A stretch of 64,000 nucleotides of DNA from Novosphingobium sp. EMRT-2 (GTDB lineage Bacteria > Pseudomonadota > Alphaproteobacteria > Sphingomonadales > Sphingomonadaceae), in contig NZ_CP039695.1 of assembly GCF_005145025.1 (NCBI RefSeq), positions 1,235,501 through 1,299,500 of the forward strand, given 5' to 3'. Below, piece by piece: positions 30,952-46,111 of this stretch (positions are counted from its first letter, which is position 1; the number at the start of each line of letters is the position of its first letter). A program made the translations under genes and the position numbers. The notes beneath the pieces are model-generated. The model saw nothing but the letters and a program-made list of their open reading frames with translations, was not told the origin of the DNA and did not search any database.

Positions 30952-30967
30952 AGCAAAGATCGTGCCA
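30952..30967 (-). promoter_or_regulatory. Sigma-54 promoter for transglycosylase-flhA-fliA
   Basis: Minus strand TGGCACG-ATCT-TTGCT, an exact match to the sigma-54 -24/-12 consensus with correct GG-GC spacing. It lies about 60 bases before the GTG start. The leader can form a hairpin around GCTTTCGA...TTCGGAAGC. Confidence 0.88.
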
Positions 30968-31740: not shown

Positions 31741-32268
31741 TCATTCGATCGGTAGTTCCACCAGTCCCGGACGCACGATCTGCGCACGCACAGGGTCGGA
31801 TTTGGCCGAGGTCTTGACCCGTATCCACGCGCCAACAGCCCCGGAATCCATGGCTTCTCCGGGTTGGGAGACGGCAAAGCCCTCGCCCGTCACGGAAACG
31901 GTCACGGCTTCGCCGCGCAGAACCGCCGGGGCGGCAGCTTCTTGCCGGGTTGCCGGCGCAAGGCCGACCACCGGCACGAAAATGCGCCAGCTGCCGGCGT
32001 CGGGACACTGGACGATCACGCTGTCGCGCGTGCCGCCCCGCCAGGACAGCGCCAGCGGCGCGCGGCAGGCGGCAAGGCGCATCCGGCGATCCACCGGCAA
32101 GGCCGCGCCGCCCGGCACGCCGATCGGCGCACCAGTGAAGCGCGCCACGGCGATGTCGATATCGGTCAGATCGGCCAGCCCGGCCCGCTGGGCCTGTGCA
32201 GGCGTGCCGATCGCAACGCCAGCCAGCGCCATGGCCAGTAGGGTAAAGGCAGGAATCTTGCGCTTCAT
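31741..32268 (-). CDS. flgA: Flagellar P-ring assembly chaperone FlgA
   Basis: 175 residues; an N-terminal signal peptide (IPAFTLLAMALAGVAIGTPAQA) and the SAF-type C-terminal domain: VLRGEAVTVSVTGEGFAVSQPGEAMDSGAVGAWIRVKT...VRAQIVRPGLVEL, as in FlgA proteins. Shorter than E. coli FlgA (219), as is common in alphaproteobacteria. It helps FlgI polymerise in the periplasm. Its own sigma-54 promoter lies 40 bases upstream, overlapping the end of the MotB-like gene. Confidence 0.88.
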   Translation of the reverse strand: MKRKIPAFTLLAMALAGVAIGTPAQAQRAGLADLTDIDIAVARFTGAPIGVPGGAALPVDRRMRLAACRAPLALSWRGGTRDSVIVQCPDAGSWRIFVPVVGLAPATRQEAAAPAVLRGEAVTVSVTGEGFAVSQPGEAMDSGAVGAWIRVKTSAKSDPVRAQIVRPGLVELPIE

Positions 32269-32307: not shown

Positions 32308-32323
32308 AGCAAACATCGTGCCA
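32308..32323 (-). promoter_or_regulatory. Sigma-54 promoter of flgA
   Basis: Minus strand TGGCACG-ATGT-TTGCT, exact -24/-12 consensus, 40 bases before the flgA ATG. TTGCCGG-type repeats inside flgA (about 31943-31963) could be activator sites. Confidence 0.87.
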
Positions 32324-32327
32324 TCCA

Positions 32328-32777
32328 TCAGCTGGCCGATGCGCTTTCTTCGGTATCGAAGCCAAGCGTAACCGTGGCGCCGCGCGAGGTGCCCGGCTCC
32401 ACGACAACGCGGGCGTTTTTGCCGCGTTCGCCCGCGCTCTGCGCCAGCGCCGCGGCGCGCGCGAACGCGGCCGCCTGATCGCCGGGGCCATGACGCACCA
32501 CGATCGTCACGCGCAAACGCGGATCGCTGCCCTGATCGGCCAGCCATTGCGCCAAAGGCGGAGCGCCGGCACCGTCGGACCACACGCCCACAGGCTCGGC
32601 GCGAACGGAGGCCTGGACGGGCGCGGGCGGTGGCGTGTGCGCGGCGGCGGCATGAGCCTTCGCAACAGGCTGCGCCTTCTCCGGCGTGTTGGCCAGCGCG
32701 GAAGCCGCGATCATGAACAGGATCATCGACAGGTCGGCCAGAATGGTCTGCCAGCCGGTCGACGGGCGGACGATCAT
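32328..32777 (-). CDS. MotB-like small membrane protein with reduced periplasmic domain
   Basis: 149 residues. One N-terminal membrane helix, GWQTILADLSMILFMIAASALA (residues 8-29), places an Asp (ADLSM) exactly where MotB has its proton-carrying Asp (YADFMTAMMAFFLLMW-type). After an Ala/Pro/His linker a short beta-helix-beta segment follows (LRVTIVVRHGPG...AFARAAALAQ...ARVVVEPG). It is too short for a normal OmpA-like peptidoglycan-binding domain and may be a reduced form. Its start overlaps the MotA-like stop by 4 bases. A second stator or an ExbD-like partner are both possible. Confidence 0.7.
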   Translation of the reverse strand: MIVRPSTGWQTILADLSMILFMIAASALANTPEKAQPVAKAHAAAAHTPPPAPVQASVRAEPVGVWSDGAGAPPLAQWLADQGSDPRLRVTIVVRHGPGDQAAAFARAAALAQSAGERGKNARVVVEPGTSRGATVTLGFDTEESASAS

Positions 32778-33499
32778 GCCGCTTCCCCCGCACGCGTCGC
32801 CGCAGCGGCGTGATCGTCCGCGCCGTGGCGTGCAGCGGTATGGCCGCCATGGTGATCGCCCTCCAGGCGCGCGTGGCGCGGCGTGGCGAGCGCGACCTGC
32901 TGAACCAGCCAGTCGATCACCGACTGACGCGCGGCCTCTTCGTCGCGGGCGCGCCGCTCGACCATCTTGGCCAGCGGTCCCAGCACGAGATTGGCGAAGA
33001 TCAGCCCGTAAAGCGTGGTCAGCACCGCCATGCCGATGGCGCTGGAAAAGGCGCCGCGTGCCACGCCGTCAGCCGGCAGTTGCGTCAGCGACACCAGCGT
33101 TCCGGCAAGACCGAACACCGGCGCCAGATCGGCCGCCTGCGCCAGCATCCCGGCCGCCTCGCCCGCTTTCGTCCGGCGCGTGGCGCGAAAGGCCTCGTGC
33201 TTTTCGAGCAGGCCGGAGACCGACCGGGTCGACAGCATGGCGTTGGTGGCTTCATCAAACTCGCGATCGCCGCTGCGGCACGGCTGGGCGCGCAGCAGGC
33301 CGTTCGCGCGAATGTCGGCGGCCTGCCCGGCCAGGACGGCGCGGACGGTATCGGCACGGAAGCGCGGCCGGAACAGGTCCGTCAGCGCCTTCCCCGTCGT
33401 GGCGGTCGCGGACAGGCCACAGCGCAGCACCGCGGCCAGCGCGGTGCCGCCAAAGACGATGACGGCGGCGGCGGGATTGTAGAAATGCGTGAAATCCAT
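32774..33499 (-). CDS. MotA/TolQ/ExbB-family proton-channel protein, three-helix form
   Basis: 241 residues. The MotA-type ending is clear: LAPVFGLAGTLVSLTQL (TM3) and SAIGMAVLTTLYGLIFANLVLGPLAKMVERRARDEE (TM4). The N-terminus begins at what is TM2 in MotA (AAAVIVFGGTALAAVL), so TM1 is missing and the topology becomes three helices as in ExbB/TolQ. The C-terminus is His-rich (HARLEGDHHGGHTAARHGADDH). Forms a unit with the MotB-like gene and is divergent from flgB. A complete motA-motB pair is also in the window, so this is an extra, atypical energising complex. Confidence 0.75.
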   Translation of the reverse strand: MDFTHFYNPAAAVIVFGGTALAAVLRCGLSATATTGKALTDLFRPRFRADTVRAVLAGQAADIRANGLLRAQPCRSGDREFDEATNAMLSTRSVSGLLEKHEAFRATRRTKAGEAAGMLAQAADLAPVFGLAGTLVSLTQLPADGVARGAFSSAIGMAVLTTLYGLIFANLVLGPLAKMVERRARDEEAARQSVIDWLVQQVALATPRHARLEGDHHGGHTAARHGADDHAAAATRAGEAA

Positions 33500-33658: not shown

Positions 33659-33674
33659 TGGCACGATGCTTGCA
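33659..33674 (+). promoter_or_regulatory. Sigma-54 promoter of the flgB operon
   Basis: TGGCACG-ATGC-TTGCA, exact -24/-12 consensus, 39 bases before the flgB ATG, with a block of TTGCCGG repeats directly upstream. Confidence 0.9.
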
Positions 33675-33713: not shown

Positions 33714-34061
33714 ATGAGCGACAGTCTTTTCGGGATACATGGCAAGGCGCTTGAACTGCGTTCGCAGCGCATGGGCCTGCTGACGTCCAACATCGCGAAC
33801 GCCGGAACACCGGGCTACAAGGCCAAGGACATCGATTTCCAGGCCGCGCTGAAGGCGCGCGCCACGGGCGCGAGCGAAGACCAGGCGATGGCATCGGCCA
33901 CGCGCTATCGCGTGCCGGTCATGCCCAGCCTTGACGGCAACACCGTCGAGATGGCGACCGAGCAGACCGCCTTCGCCGAAAACGCGGTGGGCTACACCGC
34001 CACCCTCTCCTTCATCCGCGGACGCATCGACAACGTCACGCGCGCGCTCAAGGGCGAATAA
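33714..34061 (+). CDS. flgB: Flagellar proximal rod protein FlgB
   Basis: 115 residues. The rod-family N-terminal helix SQRMGLLTSNIANAGTPGYKAKDIDF and the C-terminal FIRGRIDNVTRALKGE-type helix are present. Part of the rod between MS ring and hook; like other early rod proteins it has no large middle domain. First gene of the plus-strand rod/hook operon, behind the sigma-54 promoter. Confidence 0.95.
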   Translation: MSDSLFGIHGKALELRSQRMGLLTSNIANAGTPGYKAKDIDFQAALKARATGASEDQAMASATRYRVPVMPSLDGNTVEMATEQTAFAENAVGYTATLSFIRGRIDNVTRALKGE

Positions 34062-41594: not shown

Positions 41595-42458
41595 ATGTAC
41601 GCTGGTATCGGCATCATTATCCTGCTGGTCATGGTCTTCGGCGGCTTTGCCATCACTGGCGGCGCGCTGGGGCCGGTCATGGAGGCGATCCCGCACGAAA
41701 TGCTCATCATCGGCGGCGCGGCCGTCGGCGCGCTGGTCACGGGCAACTCGATGCACGAGCTGAAGGCGATCGGCGGCGGCTTCGCCAAAGTGTTCAAGGG
41801 GCCGAAGCACACCAAGCAGGATCACATCGACGCGATCATCCTGTGCACTAAGCTGATGAAGATCCTGCGGTCGGACGGGCCGGTGGCGCTGGAAAGCCAT
41901 GTCACGGACCCCGCCAGCTCACCTATTTTCGCGGAATTTCCGCGCCTTTTCGCCAACAAACCCTTGATTTCGCTGATCTGTGACACGCTGACCCTGATCG
42001 TCGTCTCCTCCGGCACGCTGGAGGTTCACGCTGTCGAGGACGTGATGGATCACGCGATGAAGACGCACTTCCACGAGGAAGCCGAGCCGCAGCACGCGCT
42101 GCAGGGCCTGGCCGACGCCCTGCCCGCGCTGGGTATCGTCGCGGCCGTTCTGGGCGTGGTGAAGACCATGGGCTCGATCGACAAGCCGCCAGCCATCCTT
42201 GGCGGCATGATCGGTTCGGCGCTGGTCGGCACGTTCATGGGCGTGCTTCTGGCCTATGGCATCGTCGCCCCGCTGGCGAGCCGCCTCAAGCAGGTGCTCG
42301 ATCAGGACGAGATGATCTTCCAGGCCGTCAAGCAGGTCATCATCGCTTCGCTTCACGGGTGGCCGCAGCCGCTGGTGGTGGAAAGCGCGCGGTCGGGCCT
42401 TGGCCATGCCTTCCGCCCCGGCCTGTCCGAACTGCTCGACGCGCTGCGCGGCCGCTAA
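41595..42458 (+). CDS. motA: Flagellar stator protein MotA
   Basis: 287 residues, four membrane helices, MotA of the long-N-terminus type: YAGIGIIILLVMVFGGFAITGG, EMLIIGGAAVGALVTGNS, then the cytoplasmic loop, ADALPALGIVAAVLGVVKTMG and IGSALVGTFMGVLLAYGIVAPLASRLKQ. Proton channel part of the stator acting on FliG. No sigma-54 or FliA motif was seen in the 43 bases upstream, so it probably reads through from the flg operon. Confidence 0.95.
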   Translation: MYAGIGIIILLVMVFGGFAITGGALGPVMEAIPHEMLIIGGAAVGALVTGNSMHELKAIGGGFAKVFKGPKHTKQDHIDAIILCTKLMKILRSDGPVALESHVTDPASSPIFAEFPRLFANKPLISLICDTLTLIVVSSGTLEVHAVEDVMDHAMKTHFHEEAEPQHALQGLADALPALGIVAAVLGVVKTMGSIDKPPAILGGMIGSALVGTFMGVLLAYGIVAPLASRLKQVLDQDEMIFQAVKQVIIASLHGWPQPLVVESARSGLGHAFRPGLSELLDALRGR

Positions 42459-42472
42459 GGGAAGGCTGAACC

Positions 42473-43312
42473 ATGGCCAAACCTCCCAGAGGCAAGAACG
42501 AGCCGCCTCCGGCGCCAATCATCGTCAAGAAGGTCACGGTGGTAGCCGGCGGCCACCATGGCGGCGCGTGGAAAGTCGCCTACGCCGACTTCGTGACCGC
42601 GATGATGGCCTTCTTCCTGCTGCTGTGGCTGCTGGGCGCGACCACCGAAAAGCAGCGCAAGGGCCTTGCCGATTACTTCACGCCCACCCTGGTCAAGATG
42701 AAGGAAGGCGAAGCCGGCTCCTATGGCCTGCTCGGCGGCTCCTCGATCACCGACGCGGACAACTATCCGCACAAGGCCGCGCAGACCGGCACCAAGACTC
42801 TGACCGTGCCGCGCGACGCCACCGGCGGCGCCAAGGACGGCGGATCGAAGGCCAAACGCACGGCCGTCGAGAAGAAGTTGCAGGAAAAGCTGGCCGCCAA
42901 CGCCAAGCTGCGCCAGCTCGCCCGGCAGGTCCGCATGGTGGACACCACCGAAGGAACGCGCATCGACCTGGTCGACGACGCCAACTTCTCGATGTTCCGC
43001 CTCGGCACCACGCTGCTGACGCCCGACGCGACCGAACTGTTGCAGGCGATCGGCCAGGCGATCGGCCCCGATCCATCCGGCATCACCGTGCGCGGCCATA
43101 CCGATTCGGTGCAGTGGAAGCCCGGCCAGGCTGCCAACAACTGGTCGCTATCCGCCGGCCGCGCCGAAGCCACGCGACAGGCGCTGATGCACCAGGGCGT
43201 GGCCGAAAGCCGCTTCCGCCGGATCGAAGGCGTGGCCGACCGCGAACTGCTGGTGAAGGACAACCCGTCCGATCCGCGCAACCGCCGGATTTCCATCCTG
43301 CTCGTGAACTGA
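42473..43312 (+). CDS. motB: Flagellar stator protein MotB
   Basis: 279 residues. Cytoplasmic N-terminus, then WKVAYADFVTAMMAFFLLLWLLG with the proton-binding Asp; plug/linker region; OmpA-like domain from about 165 with FRLGTTLLTPDATELLQAIGQAIG, ITVRGHTDSVQW, NWSLSAGRAEATRQALMHQGV and NPSDPRNRRISILL. Anchors the stator to peptidoglycan. 14 bases after motA; ends 10 bases from the convergent CLC gene. Confidence 0.96.
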   Translation: MAKPPRGKNEPPPAPIIVKKVTVVAGGHHGGAWKVAYADFVTAMMAFFLLLWLLGATTEKQRKGLADYFTPTLVKMKEGEAGSYGLLGGSSITDADNYPHKAAQTGTKTLTVPRDATGGAKDGGSKAKRTAVEKKLQEKLAANAKLRQLARQVRMVDTTEGTRIDLVDDANFSMFRLGTTLLTPDATELLQAIGQAIGPDPSGITVRGHTDSVQWKPGQAANNWSLSAGRAEATRQALMHQGVAESRFRRIEGVADRELLVKDNPSDPRNRRISILLVN

Positions 43313-43322
43313 CGCCTGCCCC

Positions 43323-45089
43323 TCAGGTTTCGCCGAAAATGTCCCGCTGCGCGCTTTCGAGTTTCTCGAAATAGCGCCGGCGGGCATGGCGTTCGGTGAC
43401 CACGCCGACGACGTGCTGTCCGGCATCGATCACCACCATTTCGTCCACGGCCAGCCGATCGAACAGGGCCAGCATCTCCTGGATGCCGGTCTCGGGATGC
43501 AGCGCGGTATCGACCAGCGTGGCTACCGAACTGACCAGGCCATCCATGGCAAGATCGGACCGATAGGCCAGCGCCGTGGGAACGATCCCGCGATAGCGCC
43601 CTTCGCGATCGACAAGCACGGCCTTACTCACCGACCCCAACGGGATCGCCGCGCGAAACGCGGCAATGGTGCTGTCGTCCGCGATGCTGACCCAGTCCTT
43701 GCGCATGATTCGGCCGGCGTGAAGGTCCACGACCCAGCTGATGTCGCGCGGGCTGCGCACGATCGATCCGCGCACGTGAAGACGCCAGGTGGAGAAGGAA
43801 TAACCGAAGGCTTCGCGTGTGACGGCGCTCGAAATAAGCGATGCGGTCAGCACCACGCCCATCAGCGCGAAATCGTGCGTGGTCTCCAGCATCAACATGG
43901 CCAGCGTCATCGGACCACCCACCACGGACACGCTGAATGCGGCCATGCCCACCAGCGCCGCATCGTTGGAATCGATCGCCAAGCCGGGAAACAGCATGTT
44001 GCCCACACCGGCAAAAATCTGTCCGACCAGTGAACCGAGGAACAGCGAGGCGAAGAAAAGCCCCCCGCGGAAACCGAAGCTGAGCGAGATCACAGACGCC
44101 GCTATCTTGAGGGCCAGCACCGTCAGCAGAAACATGATCGGCGGATGCAGCAGAAGGTTGAGATGCAGCGCGCCATGTCCGGCCGACAGCGCCTGCGGCG
44201 ACAGCCAGGCGATCGGCATGAGCAGGCAGCCGCCGATCACCGGCCGCCACGCGCCGATGCGCGTCCAGGATTGGACCACCAGCTCCATCGCCGTCACCAA
44301 GCGCATGACCACGATGCCGATGAACGCACAGACCAGCCCGAGCGCCGCATAGACAAGGTAATCGGGCGTGTGCAGCACCCGGTTCGCCGTCGTCGCGATC
44401 AGATAAGGCTCAACGCCAAGCAGGCGCGTGATGAAGACCGCCGACAACGCGGCCGTGACCACCGGCGCGATCGCGGCCGGGGTGTAGGCTCCGATCACGA
44501 TCTCGAAGGCATAGAAGGCGCCGGTCAATGGCGCGCCGAAAGCCGCGCCGACGGCTGCGCCGGCCCCTGCCCCGGTCAGCGTGCGCAGATCCGCGCGGCG
44601 CAGCTTGAACCATTGCCCCAGCGCGGAGGCGACGCCCCCGCCCATCTGGGCATAAGCGGCTTCGAGCCCGACCGAAGCGCCCGCGCCGTTCGATACGATC
44701 GTCTGCCCGGCGATGATCAGGCTGTCGGACAGTGGCAACCGCCCACCGTGCAGCGCATTCGCCTCGACCACGTCGATCAGCGTCCGGCGGCGGCGATGGA
44801 GCCATCGCGCCATGAACACCAGCACCAGCCCGCCGGTCGGCAGGGCCAGCAGGCGCCAGGGGTGATGGATCGATCCCAGCGCGCTCAGGCGGTTGATCGT
44901 GACGCCATAGAAGAAGTGCTGGATGCCATGCGCCAGGAACTGCTGCGCATTGGTGAGGATGCCGGCCGCAAGCCCGGCCAGCAGCGCGAGCACGATAAAG
45001 GCCGCCTCGCTTTCGCGCAGGCGGCGGCGGAACCGGATGGCGGCGGACCGCACGAGATATTTGCCAGACGAAGCCACGGCTCCCGCCAA
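43323..45089 (-). CDS. CLC-type chloride channel/antiporter with tandem CBS domains
   Basis: 588 residues; a TTG (45089) or GTG (45077) start is needed, so the first residues are uncertain. CLC membrane domain with GASVGLEAAYAQMGGG (gating Glu kept), FGAPLTGAFYAFEIVIGAY and FRGGLFFASLFLGSLVGQ. The C-terminal 150 residues hold two CBS motifs (MRKDWVSIADDSTIAAFRAAI and LHPETGIQEMLALFDRLAVDEMVVIDAGQHVVGVVTERHA). Likely Cl-/H+ exchange or channel with nucleotide-sensing CBS pair. It interrupts the flagellar cluster and has no evident flagellar role. Confidence 0.92.
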   Translation of the reverse strand: MAGAVASSGKYLVRSAAIRFRRRLRESEAAFIVLALLAGLAAGILTNAQQFLAHGIQHFFYGVTINRLSALGSIHHPWRLLALPTGGLVLVFMARWLHRRRRTLIDVVEANALHGGRLPLSDSLIIAGQTIVSNGAGASVGLEAAYAQMGGGVASALGQWFKLRRADLRTLTGAGAGAAVGAAFGAPLTGAFYAFEIVIGAYTPAAIAPVVTAALSAVFITRLLGVEPYLIATTANRVLHTPDYLVYAALGLVCAFIGIVVMRLVTAMELVVQSWTRIGAWRPVIGGCLLMPIAWLSPQALSAGHGALHLNLLLHPPIMFLLTVLALKIAASVISLSFGFRGGLFFASLFLGSLVGQIFAGVGNMLFPGLAIDSNDAALVGMAAFSVSVVGGPMTLAMLMLETTHDFALMGVVLTASLISSAVTREAFGYSFSTWRLHVRGSIVRSPRDISWVVDLHAGRIMRKDWVSIADDSTIAAFRAAIPLGSVSKAVLVDREGRYRGIVPTALAYRSDLAMDGLVSSVATLVDTALHPETGIQEMLALFDRLAVDEMVVIDAGQHVVGVVTERHARRRYFEKLESAQRDIFGET

Positions 45090-45213: not shown

Positions 45214-46041
45214 TTAGCGAAGCAGCGAGAGAACGTTCTGCTGGCTCTGGTTGGCCTGGGCGATCATCGCCGTCGAAGCCTGGCTCAGGATCTGGGCCTT
45301 GGCGAGCGCCGTCGTTTCCGCCGAGTAGTCGGTGTCCTGAATGCGCGAGCGGGCATCCGACAGGTTCGTGACGTTGCTGGTCAGGTTGTTCACCGCCGAC
45401 TGGAGGCGGTTCTGACCGGCACCCAGCGTCGAACGGGCCTTCGAGATGTCTTCGAGTTCCGTGTTCAGCGAAGTGAGCAGGCCATTGGCCGCCGTCGCCG
45501 TCGAAACGTCATAGGAACCGGCAGCGCCGCCGCTGGCAGCAAGCGTGGTAAGGTCGGACATTTCCAGATCGACCGTGTCGGTGGCGTTCGCGCCGGCCTG
45601 GATCGTCACGGTCGTGGTCGTGCCGTCGAACAGCGCAACACCGTTGAACTTGGTGTTGGTGATGACCTGGTCGATCTGCGAGGTCAGCTGGTCGACTTCC
45701 GTCTGCATGTAGGTGCGGTCGGTGGTGTCCTGATAGGTGCCCGAGGCCGACTGGGTGGCCAGTTCGCGGATACGCTGCAGCATGTTGGTCACTTCGCCCA
45801 GCGCGCCTTCAGCGGTCTGCGCCAGCGAGATGCCGTCGTTGGCGTTGCGGATGCCCTGGTTCATGCCAGTGATCTGCGAGGTCATCGAGGTGGCGATGGC
45901 GAGGCCGGCGGCGTCGTCCTTCGCGCTGTTGATGCGGGTGCCGGTGGACAGGCGCTGCATGGCAGTGCCCAGCATCTGGCTGGCCGAGTTCGAAGCGTTC
46001 GCCGCGCGCAGTGCGCTGATGTTGGTGTTGATAACGGTCAT
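45214..46041 (-). CDS. fliC: Flagellin
   Basis: 275 residues from the ATG at 46039-46041 (GGAG 8 bases upstream). N-terminal D0/D1: [50 protein letters not shown]-terminal D1/D0: [63 protein letters not shown]. The exposed middle is only about 90 residues, so the filament surface is thin. A single flagellin gene occurs in the window. FliA-type promoter upstream, strong terminator downstream. Confidence 0.96.
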
Positions 46042-46111
46042 GTCAGTCTCCAGTGAGGATCGTTCCCGAGAGGACCGCCGAGTCACGGGGATAACGCGGC
46101 TGTCGAGGCAA

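Follow-up and report, generated by a model that had tools for sequence, protein, structure and literature searches.

ExbB/ExbD and TolQ/TolR pair a three-helix A-type subunit with a short B-type subunit, and SiiA/SiiB is a proton channel that resembles MotAB and serves type I secretion. In PMC12505986, flagellar ion transporters (FIT) are defined by a four-helix square fold, an enlarged torque interface, an unbroken third transmembrane helix (TM3), a plug with linker and an expanded OmpA domain, and little structural variation is reported among their A and B subunits. Here we describe a pair of genes from a 64,000-nucleotide stretch of Novosphingobium sp. EMRT-2 (the window), located within a flagellar gene cluster between flgA and flgB and consisting of a MotA/PomA-type open reading frame (ORF), termed A, and a mini-MotB ORF, termed B (Table 1). 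This pair is real, conserved and flagellum-linked, and is a relative of the FIT motors but not a standard member. We favour, as the rather likely reading, that A/B represents a second PomA/PomB-type stator of which a conserved, ion-driven unit of the 5:2 type is left, and which would probably not function as a normal wall-anchored torque generator.

With the sodium-type stator PomA/PomB (TGI4 group), A/B shares the best family, sequence and fold match of A, the sodium-site threonines of A, the TM Asp of B and the A-B gene order, but differs by the lack of TM1 in A, the loss of the E96 and D114 charges in window A, and a B subunit of only 149 residues with an undetected plug and a degenerate OmpA-like domain. 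With MotA/MotB (TIGR03818), of which a full set is encoded in the same cluster, it shares the superfamily and the A-then-B gene order, whereas MotA contains MotA_N/TM1 and has Ala and Gly at two of the threonine positions, and MotB contains full plug and OmpA domains. The three-helix A and short B recall ExbB/ExbD and TolQ/TolR, from which the pair is set apart by the sequence of A, which falls outside their families, by a structure nearer to PomA/MotA and by its flagellar location. Of the FIT features, the unbroken TM3 is present in the predicted model of A, and the torque domain (at least four helices) may or may not have a counterpart in a loop that aligns to PomA-like relatives and in modelled cytoplasmic helices, as the rotor-contact acids are not kept. 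The four-helix square fold is not found in A, and window B has a low-confidence linker but neither a plug nor an expanded OmpA-type peptidoglycan-binding domain. No description of the pair was found among the top matches in the open-licence literature, and the accessible part of a Sphingomonas flagellin paper (PMC13015449) mentions neither motA, motB nor a stator.

Subunit A

Window A matches the Pfam family MotA_ExbB (5.6e-9) but not MotA_N, while the MotA of the window matches both. MotA_N was likewise undetected (E<=0.01) in all 39 A orthologues of alignment A1, which, together with the 40 B sequences of alignment A2, was chosen from fetched orthologues, the A of genome G079 being excluded. 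Among NCBIfam models, A scores best with PomA (9e-16, 57.9 bits), though far under the PomA cut-off of 341; TolQ and ExbB models are absent among its eight NCBIfam matches, and 9/9 PDB sequence matches are PomA or MotA chains. The AlphaFold model of A (mean predicted local distance difference test score 86.7) contains long membrane-spanning helices at residues 9-27, 94-139 and 150-203, the second of which corresponds to TM3 and is predicted as a single unbroken helix, and cytoplasmic helices at 29-42, 49-66 and 79-91 in addition to the start of helix 94-139. The cytoplasmic loop is PomA-like, and the profile of A spans this loop in 12 of 16 printed rows when compared with full-length PomA-like proteins. 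In Foldseek searches with A, all 23 matches at E<=1e-3 were flagellar MotA/PomA chains (TMq 0.61-0.74), whereas ExbB/TolQ chains first appeared at E 0.02 with TMq <=0.49. An ExbB/TolQ identity of A, which an earlier note on this DNA had named as a possible objection, was thus ruled out by NCBIfam, PDB sequence matches and Foldseek alike.

The same note had described A as a protein without TM1 and had considered a missed upstream start. Upstream of the ATG of A, in frame, a TGA is followed by TCC; this stop two codons before the start leaves no room for a missed TM1. The first residues of A correspond approximately to the start of PomA TM2 in alignments to PDB sequences and to relatives from the same order. 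A missed TM1 was also rejected for the orthologues, whose A starts were picked by script, as no TM1 was recognized by eye before the match in the loci inspected, in addition to the absence of MotA_N in 39/39. The His-rich tail noted for A is present in the window, where it is modelled at low confidence, but is not a general feature, being found by eye in only 3/39 tails (window, L003 and L009).

Subunit B

Window B matches no family of Pfam, MotB_plug included, or of NCBIfam. Its model contains a sole membrane helix (residues 8-29) with Asp15, which is kept in 40/40 aligned homologues, in agreement with the MotB-type Asp previously noted in this helix. In the model, the helix is followed by a low-confidence linker and a compact OmpA-like fold of ~80 residues (about 58-145); the domain is degenerate, but B is not devoid of an OmpA-like domain. 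Comparison of B with less reduced orthologues by hhalign yielded an E value of 1e-8; these orthologues are automatically named 'flagellar motor protein MotB' or 'OmpA family protein', and some retain Pfam MotB_plug and OmpA. The top rows of a VIA-align search with B were mostly OmpA-like, with FakB, DegV and reductases (non-OmpA folds) also among the rows, and Foldseek alone returned nothing at E<=1e-3. The OmpA Arg column is occupied by Arg in 8/24 B sequences of the window clade versus 16/16 of the less reduced B, and a plug-like motif occurs in 0/24 versus 9/16.

Conservation and selection

Residues of A were numbered after PomA by counting along the PDB-sequence alignment, with columns anchored on L126. 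The equivalents of PomA P151, G154, T158 and P199 show no variation in 39/39 A, the T185 position is occupied by Thr in 31, Ser in four and Ala in four sequences, and the T186 position by Thr in 35 and Ser in four. Window A has Thr at all three equivalents of T158, T185 and T186, while canonical MotA (n=27) has Ala, Gly and Thr at these positions. According to PMC10374538, all sodium-driven stator units share the three threonines, and the FliG-contact charges, E96 and D114 included, were indispensable for PomA motility. In window-clade A (n=22), Arg is found at the R88 position in 13, Glu at E96 in eight and Asp at D114 in none, and window A itself has Arg, Gln and Ser. Full-length PomA-like relatives (n=16) have Arg in 16, Glu in 12 and Asp in 16, and canonical MotA (n=27) keeps the R88, E96 and D114 residues in 24, 27 and 22 sequences, respectively. 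The less reduced A (n=17) have Arg at R88 in only three, but Asp or Glu at the E96 position in 17, and Asp (nine) or Asn (seven) at the D114 position. Judged from these alignments, the FliG-contact charges are relaxed in the window clade while the channel residues are fixed.

The nearest named records are from Novosphingobium sp. MD-1 and SCN 66-18, with an A identity of 97%. Compared with MD-1, A has a ratio of nonsynonymous to synonymous substitution rates (dN/dS) of 0.071 and B of 0.024; compared with SCN 66-18, the values are 0.108 and 0.035. Flagellar genes nearby give values from 0 to 0.19, a range that includes all four. Comparisons with the distant loci L105 and L003 gave dN/dS of 0.27-0.48 and 0.32-0.44, at dS of 0.7-1.2. 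In the window the A and B ORFs share 4 nucleotides, from which co-translation of the two is inferred, and both lie on the same strand with a spacing of -4 to +2 nucleotides in all 54 measurable loci, window included, of 57 tried (B lies off the contig piece in L017, and the script found no A start in L037 and L069). Low dN/dS together with this constant arrangement argues that A and B are not chance ORFs.

Distribution and the flgA-flgB slot

The distribution of A was analyzed in 199 genomes of the family (Sphingomonadaceae), with E<=1e-17 to the A1 profile as threshold for A and E<=1e-3 for FliF (136/199 positive, 133 of which are above the family cut-off). An A-profile match was present in 90/199 genomes, comprising 89/136 FliF-positive and 1/63 FliF-negative genomes (Fisher p 3.5e-20, uncorrected for kinship), and the pair thus tracks flagellar genes, which the search proposed in the earlier note was meant to check. 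Three genomes with weaker matches and MotA1 distant or on another contig (G067, G112 and G116) may instead encode PomA-like proteins of full length, and their exclusion would give 86/136 and 1/63. The sole FliF-negative genome with A (G203) is fragmentary and has A between flgA and flgB. MotA1 is encoded on the contig of A in 83 genomes, at a distance of 8.0-11.7 kb in 80 of them and on the opposite strand in 80/80.

A, B and cluster-type motA co-occupy the same 29/37 genomes sampled from the genus, with MotA1 proteins split by score, after inspection, into the cluster type (E 1e-93 to 1e-98) and a second-system type (E 1e-103 to 1e-108). The second class of TIGR03818 MotA is encoded at another locus in six genomes (G005, G007, G025, G028, G031 and G034) and probably stems from a second flagellar system; G028 and G034 contain this class only and have no A or B match.

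In 28 of the 29 A-bearing loci read, flgA and flgB flank the slot; the other locus reaches a contig end. The gene order across these loci is flhA, transglycosylase, flgN, flgM, flgA, B, A, flgB to flgL, motA and motB, apart from some small or diverged genes that escaped detection and some loci truncated at an end. A B-type ORF directly follows A in 27/29, the exceptions being G079 and the contig end. Among 20 stretches from FliF-positive, MotA1-positive genomes that lack A, flgA and flgB are both visible in 15, and in 14 of these the slot is empty, the two reading frames overlapping or being at most 179 nucleotides apart. Since the slot is filled in many Sphingomonadaceae and empty in relatives, A/B constitutes an optional module in a fixed slot. 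In the remaining stretch, from G145 (L142:11779-13238), LPP20 (FlgP-like) and FlgT_N genes take the place of A/B, which indicates that the slot serves other flagellar accessory genes in another lineage. In G079 (L090:9423-10124), A is diverged and no longer has the channel threonine motif, and no B was found; G165 of the same genus has an empty slot (L135).

Relatives within the order

In a wider search, 36/385 genomes sampled across the class gave a match at E<=1e-13 with a single-protein query, which would miss a strongly diverged A; four of these belong to the family, and in 8/8 loci inspected among the other 32 a TM1 lies upstream of the match. Homologues from the order outside the family (16 loci) are all PomA-like with a TM1 segment and have flhA nearby in 15/16. 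TIGR03818 MotA is also encoded in 15/16 of these genomes (all but G060). Genomes of this order thus commonly encode stators of two types, and A/B appears to be the PomA-like one in reduced form. A scenario in which MotAB replaced an ancestral stator of the PomA type was considered and ruled out, as MotA1 is present in 22/24 order relatives outside the family and 15/16 fetched genomes have both.

In a careful phylogenetic tree, which retained 9/27 MotA1 rows, window-clade A grouped with the intermediate loci L095-L098 and L102 (support 97/89) on a long stem, and PomA-like proteins, MotC and MotA1 formed a separate group (93/93). The TolQ/ExbB root falls on long branches among the A lineages, and its placement is unsure. 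Two further alignments, A3 (66 rows) and A4 (44 rows), each cover part of 120 listed proteins.

The one-contig genome G096 encodes A/B but has no MotA1 match. A/B as sole stator was rejected, as the cluster looks damaged: in G096 (L080, 1701-2453) an IS240-type transposase lies ~3 kb past flgI, where flgJ to motB would be expected.

Putative function of A/B

The analyses demonstrate homology, co-occurrence, synteny, residue conservation and selection; stoichiometry, ion flow, rotation, sodium preference and non-canonical coupling are inferred. A second stator of the PomA/PomB type would have been reduced within the Sphingomonadaceae by loss of TM1 from A and shortening of B, and in the window clade B would also have lost its plug and the conserved peptidoglycan-contact Arg of the OmpA domain. 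By analogy to the family, five A and two B would be expected to assemble into a 5:2 ion-driven unit, in which ions (sodium, according to the signature) would pass between TM3/TM4 of A and Asp15 of B and thereby turn A around B. TM1 is peripheral in PomAB and unresolved in two of the five subunits according to PMC10374538, so that its loss need not stop the motor. With the channel fixed and the contacts to rotor (FliG) and wall loose, A-B of the window clade presumably still turns but is uncoupled from the ordinary stator role. In this clade, A/B would then most likely act as an accessory energizer or modulator at the flagellar base, beside a complete MotAB, whereas a true second stator may persist in lineages in which B has retained the OmpA Arg and, often, plug-like motifs.

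It is plausible that A/B energizes something other than rotation, and candidate driven processes are a step at the flagellar base or the modulation of MotAB. The gene next to B is flgA, and a transglycosylase gene is located three genes further on. The specific proposal of a sodium-type 5:2 motor, free of rotor and wall, that powers another step at the flagellar base, such as P-ring/rod wall passage or stator remodelling/gating, is tentative. Of the 'new energising complex' in the earlier note, what is borne out is that the pair is stator-like, reduced, conserved and linked to flagellar genes, but it is not unrelated to known systems, being a derived relative of PomA/MotA-MotB stators.

An ordinary second stator, in which A/B joins the rotor, provides torque and is anchored by the small OmpA-like domain, by FliL or by pairing with the canonical MotB, appears unlikely. 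The PomA-like cytoplasmic loop of A, the retention of R88 in the window, the presence of fliL, the orthologues with Pfam MotB_plug and OmpA, and the 17 less reduced A with acidic residues at E96 (17/17) and Asp or Asn at D114 (16/17) all speak for this reading. Window A nevertheless has Gln and Ser in place of two charges described as indispensable in PomA (PMC10374538), and window B has no detectable plug and belongs to a clade in which the wall-contact Arg is unconserved. We regard a TolQR/ExbBD-like general envelope energizer that is merely located in the flagellar cluster as improbable: the three-helix A with its probably outside N-terminus, the small B and the unconserved wall-binding residues would fit such a system, but the NCBIfam and PDB matches of A point elsewhere, the pair is strongly linked to FliF and confined to a single slot of the flagellar cluster, and two further MotA_ExbB genes above the cut-off are located elsewhere in the window genome. 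A decaying, functionless relic of an old second stator, as the empty slots of relatives and the B-less G079 with its lost threonine motif might suggest, is very improbable given that dN/dS among close relatives is 0.07-0.11 for A and 0.02-0.035 for B and that the channel residues are invariant in 39/39 aligned A, G079, outside the alignment, being what decay looks like.

As a pair without square fold, plug or expanded OmpA domain, yet with fixed channel residues and a location in the flagellar cluster, A/B would represent a naturally occurring case in which the ion channel has been separated from rotor contact and wall anchor, and a single family provides graded intermediates. It makes testable both the need for TM1 in a 5:2 motor and the re-use of a stator as an energizer.

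Regulation and neighbouring genes

The coordinates and strands of A and B, their setting between flgA and flgB, and the complete motA and motB, as given in the earlier note, were all correct; motA and motB follow flgL, ~8 kb from A/B. Exact matches to the sigma-54-type motif TGGCACN5TTGC occur only three times in the window (Table 1), pointing to putative sigma-54 control of the transglycosylase, flgA and flgB operons. The site between B and flgA implies that flgA probably has its own promoter, and no site on the strand of A was detected in the 214 nucleotides upstream of A (<=3 mismatches, GG/GC kept).

Table 1. The A/B gene pair, its flanking genes, the complete stator genes and sigma-54-type sites in the window.
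Feature	Position	Strand	Basis
Sigma-54-type site before SLT transglycosylase gene	30953-30967	minus	exact match
flgA (P-ring chaperone), flank downstream of A/B	31741-32268	minus	Pfam ChapFlgA 2e-9
Sigma-54-type site between B and flgA	32309-32323	minus	0 mismatches
B, 149-residue mini-MotB, one TM helix with Asp15	32328-32777	minus	Asp15 conservation, model, VIA-align, hhalign
A, 241-residue MotA/PomA-type protein without TM1	32774-33499	minus	Pfam MotA_ExbB, PomA best NCBIfam/PDB match, AlphaFold, Foldseek
Sigma-54-type site before flgB	33659-33673	plus	exact match
flgB (rod protein), divergent flank upstream of A/B	33714-34061	plus	Pfam Flg_bb_rod 4.7e-6; name from cluster position
motA, complete	41595-42458	plus	TIGR03818 above cut-off; Ala/Gly/Thr at PomA threonine positions in its family
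motB, complete, plug and OmpA domains	42473-43312	plus	Pfam

Across 29 loci, a site with <=2 mismatches precedes flgB in 29/29 and flgA in 17/29, and a candidate precedes A in 9/29. The latter include all five intermediate loci (L095-L098 and L102), in which no site was found before flgA. As shuffling gives a chance of ~0.10 for such a candidate in 400 nucleotides, weight is placed only on these five consistent loci, in whose lineages A-B is probably part of the flagellar sigma-54 regulon. The distance from the site to the A start is 12-14 nucleotides in L095, L097, L098 and L102, and 65 nucleotides in L096 with the start as chosen; the four short distances may reflect a near-leaderless mRNA or a true A start further downstream.

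Directly behind motB and convergent with it, the window encodes a ClC-type chloride channel with a CBS match (43323-45089, minus strand), and a flagellin gene (45214-46086, minus strand) is located slightly past the motAB end of the cluster.
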